Below, in pieces: positions 6,510 through 11,377 of a stretch of 34,450 bases of DNA. The notes under the pieces were generated by a model that was not told the origin of the DNA, made no database searches, and saw nothing but the letters and a program-made list of their open reading frames with translations. Position numbers and translations under genes: made by a program. The stretch lies in assembly GCA_002869005.1 (NCBI GenBank), contig PKTU01000182.1, forward strand, positions 1 through 34,450. Direction: 5' to 3'. The DNA comes from Deltaproteobacteria bacterium (GTDB taxonomy: Bacteria > Desulfobacterota > Deferrisomatia > Deferrisomatales > BM512). The first letter of the stretch is position 1; every line of letters starts with the position of its first letter.

Positions 6510-7106
6510 ATGGAAATTAATAACAGTAAACTCGCGGAGTTGGTCAGGGGCGCTAAAAGCGCCGGAGCGTCAGACGCGCGCGTTGTGGAGGTCTCTTCCA
6601 TTGTCGTCGACGATGGCCTGGCGGAAAAATGTGTCGAGCCCAGATGCCCGAACTATGGTCTCGCCTTAAGCTGCCCTCCAAACGTGGAGGGCCCGGATGG
6701 CTTTCGGGATAAGCTAAAGCATTTCACTAAAGCAATAGCCGTAAGGCTCGATGTGCCCTACAAACTCCTCTATTCAAAGGAGTCATACACCGCCTTCAAG
6801 AGGCTTGGTGAACTGGCGGTGGAGGTCGAGGAGCTTGCCGTCGAGGCCGGTTTTAAAGACGCTCTTGCCTACACGGGCGGTTCCTGCAAGGTTATCTTCT
6901 GCAAAGATGAAGAGCGTTGCCGGGCGCTTACGGAGGGTGGCGAGTGTAGGCATCCGAGATATGCCAGGCGTTCGACGTCCGGGTATGGGGTTGATGTGGC
7001 CGCGCTGGCCGCAGAGGCCGGGTGGAAGCTCTCCTGGAGCGGAGTCGAGCCGGAAGACGGGGGCGGGAAGGTTGCCAGCGTCTATGGGTTGGTGCTTGTT
7101 TATTAG
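6510..7106 (+). CDS. DUF2284 family predicted metal-binding protein
   Basis: A 198-residue protein of the DUF2284 family (predicted metal-binding, common in anaerobes; biochemical role unknown). Family marks are CVEPRCPNYGLALSCPPN near residue 38, GGSCKVIFC near 123, and a later C...GGECRHPRYARRS...GVDV segment; together they give about seven conserved cysteines likely to bind a metal or Fe-S cluster. The ATG at 6510 follows AGGAGG by 12 bases, slightly long. It starts 53 bases after holA and may or may not be in that transcript. No signal peptide or membrane segment is seen. Confidence 0.85.
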   Translation: MEINNSKLAELVRGAKSAGASDARVVEVSSIVVDDGLAEKCVEPRCPNYGLALSCPPNVEGPDGFRDKLKHFTKAIAVRLDVPYKLLYSKESYTAFKRLGELAVEVEELAVEAGFKDALAYTGGSCKVIFCKDEERCRALTEGGECRHPRYARRSTSGYGVDVAALAAEAGWKLSWSGVEPEDGGGKVASVYGLVLVY

Positions 7107-9650: not shown

Positions 9651-9676
9651 TGTGGAGGCTTACCAGAACCTCCACA
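9651..9676. repeat. 8-bp inverted repeat between convergent genes
   Basis: TGTGGAGG at 9651-9658 is the reverse complement of 9669-9676, with a 10-base loop that covers the stop codon of the minus-strand gene. There is no T run on either side, so it is not a classic terminator, but it is the only hairpin between the two convergent genes and may limit read-through. Confidence 0.45.
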
Positions 9677-10571
9677 TACCTACGACAAGCAATATCCCGA
9701 AAGCCACGGCGAGGTTTACATAGGCCATCACGTAAAGCAGCCGCACCTCTTTCGTCTCCAGCTTAAGTTCACCGTTCGCCATCGAGAATGTTGGGAAGCC
9801 CTCCAGCTTCTCGATGCCGTGCGGCGCATCCTTGAGTGCCGAGGTCATATCCTCCCCAGCCTGATGGCGTCCAAAGTGGCTACCTTCTTTCCACCTTTCG
9901 CTGCCGCTTAGATCATAGAGCACCTCATCGACTCGCACCCACGCCGGGCGCCCCTCCATACCGTCGTTTACCTGCCATCCGGCCCTGAGCTTCTTCAGCT
10001 TGGGGCTCAGGATTTGGGAGACGTATATAGCCGATAGGACGAGGAAGAGGTATAGCCCGATCTTCACCAGCAGCAACTTGCCGGAGGTTGAGTCGAGGAG
10101 CGCGCCGGGGTGGTGGTATCGCATCTTCGTCAGAATCACCCCGGTTACCCCGAGGACCAGTATCGATGCGAAAGCTATGCGCGTCTCGGTCTTGGGCAGC
10201 CCGCCCTTTGCGTACTTCGGCTTTAGTACCAGATGGACGTAGAGTATGGTGCCTATCCAGGCGAAGGCCGCTATGAGGTGCGCCATTCCCAGGAGTATTT
10301 TCAGTATGCGTTCCCCCGCCGTCTTCGGCGCTCCTATCGAGGTCTTTGGCGGCGGCCACTCGTAGCCGGAGGTAAGAAAGGCATCACCCACCGGGGTAAG
10401 GGTTCCACCGCCGGTTTCGTCGATATGGCAGGTTTTGCAGGGCTCTTTGCTCTGCATGGCGAACTCCTCTGTGGCCCGGGAGACGCTCACACAAAATAGC
10501 GTAGTCAGAATGAGGGCAGCCAGGAGTAGCTTTAGCTGAGCTTTTAAAGACATTGTCCACGCCGGTATCAA
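9660..10571 (-). CDS. CopD-like membrane protein with c-heme motif and cytochrome b5 domain
   Basis: A predicted inner-membrane redox protein of about 303 residues. After a hydrophobic N-terminal segment (about residues 13-31, signal or anchor) there is a CKTCH c-type heme motif at about 45-49. Three hydrophobic helices follow (about 90-112, 131-150, 168-188) with CopD-like character. Next is a cytochrome b5-like heme domain (about 211-252; AWVRVDEVLYDLSGS and later KDAPHG), and a last helix ends in MWRFW. A c-heme plus a b5-heme in one polypeptide suggests electron transfer across or near the membrane. The start is uncertain: TTG at 10571 is chosen because AGAGGTG precedes it at 6 bases. ATG at 10553 would still keep the signal, and ATG at 10607 would overlap the upstream gene. 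It follows the DUF5714 gene by 5 bases, so co-translation is likely. Confidence 0.8.
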   Translation of the reverse strand: MIPAWTMSLKAQLKLLLAALILTTLFCVSVSRATEEFAMQSKEPCKTCHIDETGGGTLTPVGDAFLTSGYEWPPPKTSIGAPKTAGERILKILLGMAHLIAAFAWIGTILYVHLVLKPKYAKGGLPKTETRIAFASILVLGVTGVILTKMRYHHPGALLDSTSGKLLLVKIGLYLFLVLSAIYVSQILSPKLKKLRAGWQVNDGMEGRPAWVRVDEVLYDLSGSERWKEGSHFGRHQAGEDMTSALKDAPHGIEKLEGFPTFSMANGELKLETKEVRLLYVMAYVNLAVAFGILLVVGMWRFW

Positions 10572-10576
10572 TGCGT

Positions 10577-11377
10577 TCACCTCTTTTCGCCGGTGAAGTA
10601 GGGGCATTGCCCCTCCCGGCAGCCGTGGGGATGCGCGCTGCTGAATTCGCAGGCCGATGGGGCGGATATGGGAAGGACTACCTCGAGCGCCTCGGCGAGA
10701 TAATCAGCCGCTACCGCTATTGAGGCTAGCATGTACGCTTTGCAGCAGCTGGGCCCCGTGAGCCCGGTTATCGCGCTTGAGGTTCGCGTAGCAGCCTCCA
10801 TGGTTATGCGCTGCTCCCCATTTGTGCCGCACTTTGACCCAGTGAGCAGGGCGAAGACTGCCCCAATCGCAGGAGTAATGCCGCAAACCCCCGTAAGGCC
10901 GCAGTACCCGCCGATGGCTTGTCTGTCCAGCCTGGAGAAGACCTCGTCCACTTCGGCCTCTTTTATATTAAATGCCCCCTTATTTCGAAGCGCGCCCAAC
11001 AACGCCCCCGCCGCGATGTAGGCGTGTTGGCAGCCGAGCATGGCAAGGCGGGGGTCGCGCAGCATCTGCTCCGCCAGTTGAATGGGGTCCATAGAGGAGG
11101 AGGATAACGCCGTCCGTTTAAAGCTCTTGAGTGAATCGGCGTTGCAACAAGCGTCACAGAGAAAATGACCGTCAGGGCAACGAATGTGCGCGCGCTGCTC
11201 TCTGCCGCAGAGGTCGCAATTCAGGGTTGCCGCGCGGGTCAGGTACTCCAGGGGGGTCCCGCATGTCAGGCAATGGGTGACTTCTTGCGGCGTCGAAGGT
11301 GTTGCAGCGCTTTCGGAGTGCCGACCGGCACTATCCTCCGGAGCTCAACAGCTTTGATTGATTTTTATTTCATCCAT
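10577..11377 (-). CDS. DUF5714 protein, probable selenoprotein (UGA at codon 11)
   Basis: The main domain (from residue 96, where an internal ATG lies at 11092) matches DUF5714: GCQHAYIAAGALLGAL, GGYCGLTGVCG, PSCCK, and a HPHGCREGQCPYF end rich in cysteine. Read upstream in the same frame, the protein continues through a zinc-ribbon-like region: C36-X2-C39, C54-X2-C57, CPDGHFLCDACC at 67-78. This N-terminus is what I recall for family members. No ATG, GTG or TTG exists in frame between residue 96 and a TGA at 11345-11347. Beyond the TGA the frame stays open to an ATG at 11377, preceded by CGGAG at 12 bases; the next upstream stop is 11402-11404. Read as selenocysteine, the N-terminus is MDEIKINQSCU, and a GGUC-loop hairpin follows the UGA. 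The product would be 266 residues. A frameshift or a rare start codon is the alternative. Biochemical function is unknown. Confidence 0.78.
11317..11332 (-). promoter_or_regulatory. Candidate bacterial SECIS element
   Basis: On the minus strand the bases after the in-frame UGA (11345-11347) form a perfect 6-bp stem AGUGCC / GGCACU closed by the tetraloop GGUC. The loop occupies nucleotides 19-22 after the UGA. From memory, the GGUC of the E. coli fdhF SECIS, which SelB recognises, sits at the same distance. A bulged U like that of fdhF is not obvious, although two more G-C pairs can form below an AU bulge. The hairpin lies wholly within coding sequence, as bacterial SECIS elements do. Confidence 0.7.

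Follow-up and report, generated by a model that had tools for sequence, protein, structure and literature searches.

The window (the whole stretch of DNA analysed here, 34,450 nucleotides) raises the question of whether a UGA codon close to the beginning of a DUF5714 reading frame is translated as selenocysteine (Sec), and of what a Cys-Sec pair at such a place in the protein might do. The reading favoured here, with a probability of roughly 0.88 and judged from sequence, is that the gene encodes a selenoprotein with a functional Cys-Sec arm.

The reading frame, the hairpin and the selenocysteine machinery

The gene is located on the minus strand at positions 10577-11377 and comprises 266 codons and a stop, running from ATG 11377 to the TGA at 10579-10577 (frame 11377-10580). 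Direct translation gave MDEIKINQSC-UGA-APEDSAGRHSES..., with a single in-frame UGA at 11345-11347 (minus strand), placed immediately 3′ of the Cys10 codon as the candidate Sec codon for residue 11, and the N terminus MDEIKINQSC-U that the original prediction had read from ATG 11377 was thereby borne out. The encoded domains are arranged in the order N-terminal Cys-Sec arm, zinc-site domain and DUF5714 core. Past the UGA, the earliest in-frame ATG, GTG or TTG is ATG 11092, in agreement with the earlier statement that the zinc-site N terminus has no such start downstream of the UGA. Conventional gene calling would probably yield only the shortened ORF that begins there (10577-11092, minus strand; 171 amino acids), as had been anticipated; this ORF retains most of the DUF5714 domain and lacks C36, C39, C54 and C57 as well as C67, H71, C74 and C77. 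The final TGAs of the window gene and of three relatives (L020, L022 and L024) were also read through in search of a second Sec domain. None was found, and these TGAs are considered ordinary stops because the frames beyond them fall apart.

A SECIS-like hairpin is present after the UGA at 11332-11317 (minus strand), as predicted, with a 6 bp stem (AGTGCC pairing with GGCACT) enclosing a GGTC loop at 11326-11323. The loop occupies nucleotides 19-22 after the UGA, with 18 nucleotides between the UGA and the loop.

The genome of the organism itself (2.6 Mb, 92% complete, a draft of 192 contigs) was searched for the Sec machinery, and all four genes were present: selA (E=5e-173), selB (372.7 bits, above the cut-off), the tRNA-Sec gene selC (anticodon TCA, 75.4 bits) and selD (L143, contig C1:18486-19412). 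The SelD protein holds an in-frame UGA of its own within SGUGAK, the known Sec site of this enzyme, so that at least one further gene of the organism very probably has a UGA translated as Sec.

The Cys-Sec arm, its core and their possible chemistry

A structural model prepared with AlphaFold2 on a 61-sequence alignment had a mean pLDDT of 87.1 and a pTM of 0.84. The N-terminal arm with Cys10-Sec11 covers residues 1-35 (11273-11377, minus strand); the pLDDT dropped below 50 at residues 11-30, and this segment is predicted to be a disordered arm on a confident core. It is followed by a putative double zinc-binding domain (11147-11272, minus strand) built on the motifs C36xxC39/C54xxC57 and C67xxxH71xxC74xxC77. 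The eight Cys and His residues concerned were invariant in the 61 sequences, and matches of the domain to Pfam Zn-ribbon and RING families were weak and mixed. The remainder is the DUF5714 core (PF18978; 10595-11116, minus strand; residues 88-261), Cys-rich and mostly helical, which was recognized by Pfam with E=1.4e-41 and a score of 142.3 bits against a gathering threshold of 26.2. PDB and viral fold searches with the predicted model gave no match at E<=0.001, and a PDB search by sequence returned nothing convincing.

In the mechanism proposed, ribosomes would start at ATG 11377, and SelB, tRNA-Sec and the downstream hairpin would together cause the UGA at 11345-11347 to be read as selenocysteine. 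The product would be a protein of 266 residues in which a disordered arm bearing Cys10-Sec11 precedes the double zinc-site domain and the Cys-rich helical DUF5714 core. The vicinal Cys-Sec pair may form a selenenylsulfide, and the arm could swing and exchange with the core cysteines either electrons or a metal(loid) or organometal(loid) species bound by thiols. This proposed action is modelled on the Cys-Sec tail of thioredoxin reductase (GCUG) or the C-terminal CC tail of the mercuric reductase MerA, where a flexible vicinal pair serves another active site. The window protein has neither a flavin domain nor sequence kinship with these enzymes, and the comparison is a working analogy only. A redox or metal-binding role for the arm is likely, and metal(loid) substrate chemistry in particular is a tentative suggestion, at somewhat less than even odds.

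Thiol-metal(loid) chemistry is suggested by the company that the domain keeps in relatives, namely fusions to ArsM-like, radical SAM, DUF2284 and AhpD domains and neighbours of the ars type. A single scan of genome contigs yielded 80 loci spanning Nitrospirota, Thermodesulfobacteriota and other deltaproteobacterial lineages, Bacillota, Actinomycetota and Spirochaetota; many of the relatives come from draft metagenome assemblies. An ArsR-type regulator was encoded within ~5 kb in 25 of the compared loci (one representative was confirmed as HTH_5). Locus L116 is flanked by genes for an ArsP_1 permease and a Thioredoxin_3 protein, with similar genes, by cluster and sequence, at L121 and L141, and the latter also has neighbours encoding an SBF-family transporter and DGC and DUF2703 proteins. 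No ars-type neighbours were found in the window, and the search of the organism's own genome for an arsenite methyltransferase (ArsM) gave none over the cut-off, only methyltransferase matches below it. Several clusters of shared neighbours were set aside as artefacts or lineage-specific features: opposite-strand shadow ORFs, a B12-binding radical SAM protein, and a polyketide-synthase-like protein beside C-terminal Sec forms. A separate observation concerns a conserved protein of ~90 residues, weakly FeoC-like, which is often encoded directly upstream of the selenoprotein, with the ArsR-type regulator further upstream (L070:292-561, L125:4451-4720 and 15 further loci).

A more conservative view is that the protein works simply as a thiol-disulfide (selenenylsulfide) oxidoreductase or senses redox state, the link to metal(loid)s belonging to other family members only. 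Most Sec proteins are indeed redox enzymes (PMC13188914), and the immediate genomic context could be read in the same way. The probable operon partner in the window (9660-10553, minus strand) is a membrane protein with a signal-like N terminus, one CxxCH motif and a CopD-like region (Pfam CopD, E=8.3e-9), starting either at ATG 10553, 24 nucleotides past the selenoprotein stop, or at ATG 10607, which would make the genes overlap. The same type of CxxCH/CopD-like gene comes after the selenoprotein gene in a congener, the nearest relative; it is the only conserved partner and could be an electron carrier. The Cys-rich core of 21 out of 61 relatives also matches the redox family C_GCAxxG_C_C (PF09719) weakly (best E=7.8e-5), and this family is itself listed with Sec forms (PMC13188914); the window protein has no match of its own, which leaves distant kinship at most. 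Against a purely redox function stand the ArsM-like, radical SAM and DUF2284 fusions and the ArsR and ArsP neighbours of relatives, together with a core unlike any solved redox fold. The purely redox view is held as a minority reading, less likely than not. 

Kinship with MbdU and conservation of the Cys-Sec pair

The original prediction knew of no description of Sec at this position in the DUF5714 family, and this part has to be given up. NCBIfam family NF045648 (MbdU, 'metal-binding double selenoprotein') contains the CU half and appears in Table 1 of a 2026 review, with the motif CU and two Sec residues; the table names Haft and Tolstoy 2025 as the source (PMC13188914). The NF045648 model matched residues 4-264 of the window protein with 335.4 bits (E=5.7e-100; profile positions 2-269 of 468), so that the N-terminal Cys-Sec arm, the zinc-site residues and the DUF5714 half are all aligned. 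On the strength of this match, the gene might be regarded as MbdU in the strict sense and hence as already described. This is very unlikely, as the curated cut-off of NF045648 is 600 bits and the window protein ends after DUF5714, having neither the DUF2284 domain nor the second Sec. A true MbdU from Nitrospira sp. (L065), by comparison, scored 832.7 bits over the whole model, has both DUF5714 and DUF2284, and carries its second Sec in SGPAGATUPSGE. Strict membership is thus refuted, the score falling short of the cut-off and a domain being missing, while the kinship stands: the window protein, as predicted from its sequence, is related to the two-Sec fusion MbdU and differs from it in standing alone and carrying a single Sec. 

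The window does contain a stand-alone gene for DUF2284, the domain type of the second half of MbdU, at 6510-7106 (plus strand). It was considered as a separate MbdU second half and rejected, being on the opposite strand at a distance of ~3.5 kb, without Sec and with a weak MbdU match. Among the papers searched, none names DUF5714, and the 2026 review was the only relevant source on MbdU; it lists no stand-alone DUF5714 selenoprotein (PMC13188914), and Haft and Tolstoy 2025 may mention a stand-alone form.

Other known systems are less close. Fusions of radical SAM, ArsM-like and DUF5714 domains, which are distant Cys forms (e.g. L060), share the DUF5714 core and the zinc-site residues and, in several cases, a CC linker. 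Unlike the window protein, they are ~1,000-1,130 residues long, have radical SAM and ArsM-like methyltransferase domains N-terminal to DUF5714, and contain no Sec. The selenoproteins ArsM-DUF2284 (NF041536), ArsM-AhpD (NF041537) and MduS (NF045649) have exchangeable partner domains in common with DUF5714 proteins, but their core is a methyltransferase and not DUF5714, and the window protein matches none of the three models.

Conservation of the pair itself was examined first in the congener (68% identity), which keeps the UGA, the peptide MDxxKINQSC-UGA-APEDxAGRHSE and the hairpin. Its full frame is conserved, and a tree of the core grouped the two proteins with 99/99 support. A phylum search yielded further relatives in which C-UGA precedes the codons for the zinc-site residues, and C-UGA together with the hairpin was found in dozens of loci across several phyla. 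A UGA lies in the N-terminal tail of 54 relatives, and in 51 of them the codon immediately before it encodes Cys. The three exceptions are L109 (GU), L136 (GUC) and L085 (UDU), the last being an MbdU-type protein with an unusual U-D-U in its N-terminal tail instead of C-U. Of 15 distant Cys forms examined, 8 carry a CC pair, located in the linker or the N-terminal tail, and the others have CxC or no pair. The alignment suggested earlier for residues 10-11 therefore gave CU in the close homologues and CC in several distant Cys forms.

The hairpin was then compared across 50 C-UGA sequences. Loop positions clustered at 18 and 21 nucleotides past the UGA, and within the tested interval 44 of the 50 had a stem of 5 bp or longer, whereas ~23% of control positions inside the genes did. 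When the stem was held in those two registers, pairing was seen in 253 of 300 cells, compared with a mean of 164 in shuffled sequences (sd 6.5, maximum 187). These figures are somewhat generous because the better of the two registers was taken for each sequence and the shuffles leave coding constraint and relatedness uncorrected; the excess of pairing is far larger than the bias from these sources. Real stems also contained more pair types than the shuffles did, and the stem covaries. The GGUC loop is typical rather than universal, since GGTC was found in 22 of the 50 relatives and GGGG, GGGC or similar often took its place elsewhere. The proposed check for a SECIS element thus came out in favour of a conserved SECIS-like hairpin, paired well above the shuffles.

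The distribution of selB was consistent with these results, in that selB was found in every genome tested that has an N-terminal C-UGA. Two close relatives lack the Sec codon. In one (G015/L029), neither C-UGA nor a selB match was found. The other (L110; L110:2819-2920) carries CGC (Arg) in place of the Sec codon, with the TCTGGTCAGA hairpin sequence still recognizable, and its draft genome gave no selB over the cut-off, only an EF-Tu-sized match; it looks like a recent loss of Sec. The joint absence of the Sec codon and a selB match in L029 and L110 fits loss.

With the machinery, the conserved C-UGA and the hairpin all pointing the same way, residue 11 is almost certainly Sec in a CU pair. 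The competing possibility is that the UGA is a real stop, with translation initiated from ATG 11092 or from an uncommon start (CTG 11269 or ATT 11185) and the upstream frame a remnant. The 171-residue ORF that this would produce does exist and holds most of DUF5714, and the CTG and ATT codons are in frame. The idea is nevertheless extremely unlikely given that the upstream peptide, the UGA and the hairpin are conserved across phyla, where the original prediction would have been undermined by homologues without conservation ahead of the TGA, and given that the eight invariant Cys and His residues lie upstream of 11092 and the Sec machinery is present. A sequencing error at 11345-11347 (a sense codon such as TGC or TGT, a single base from TGA, in a draft assembly of 192 contigs) or a degenerating gene is barely credible when assemblies made independently in many projects have this UGA too, as does the complete genome of the cultured Clostridium carboxidivorans P7, and when the frame is otherwise intact with a highly conserved core changed mostly at third positions.

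Cys/Sec arms at either end of DUF5714 proteins

The role of the arm can be viewed from a second group of relatives. In 17 Nitrospirota loci encoding stand-alone DUF5714 proteins (L084, L090, L091, L093, L106, L108, L097, L100, L102, L104, L117-L119, L124, L126, L128 and L130), the arm is missing from the N terminus and a Cys/Sec arm (CU or CxxU) stands instead at the C terminus, beside the stop, with ends such as GGSCUK*, NCUR*, SCURP*, CVTUKP*, CHTUKP* and similar. An N-terminal C-UGA was seen in none of the 17. Most have a strong hairpin beginning 14-22 nucleotides past the UGA and overlapping the stop codon or lying beyond it. Two of the genomes, both drafts that may be incomplete, gave less clear results for selB: no match over the cut-off was found with L104, and the L126 genome has a selB fragment just below the cut-off. 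The C-terminal arm of DUF5714 proteins is apparently undescribed so far. In the core tree, the 17 forms fall in two groups, which points to two changes in the position of the arm, though a single origin may also fit.

Fusions of DUF5714 to AhpD/CMD with the motif CxxU (GCQPUTDYC) were also found (L068, L096, L127, L139 and L141), and no NCBIfam model over the cut-off was obtained for the two that were tested. Some of these fusions carry a further Sec near the C terminus. In L068 there is a C-terminal arm (DCUTP*) and no N-terminal one, and L141 apparently has Sec at both ends; an either-or placement is for this reason limited to the stand-alone forms. Within that limit, DUF5714 selenoproteins probably have a movable Cys/Sec arm, at the N or the C terminus and not at both, which could serve the core as a modular relay for redox equivalents or metals.

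For annotation, the finding corrects the reading of a group of genes that probably appear cut short at the UGA, with loss of the Cys-Sec pair and the zinc-site residues. For the family, it indicates that the DUF5714 half of MbdU is widespread by itself as a one-Sec protein, and the C-terminal forms provide candidate bacterial SECIS hairpins that extend past the stop codon. The exchange of the arm between the two ends would be a natural test of the function of a flexible Cys-Sec arm, and a testable working model is offered for DUF5714, a domain for whose predicted fold no counterpart was found among solved structures.
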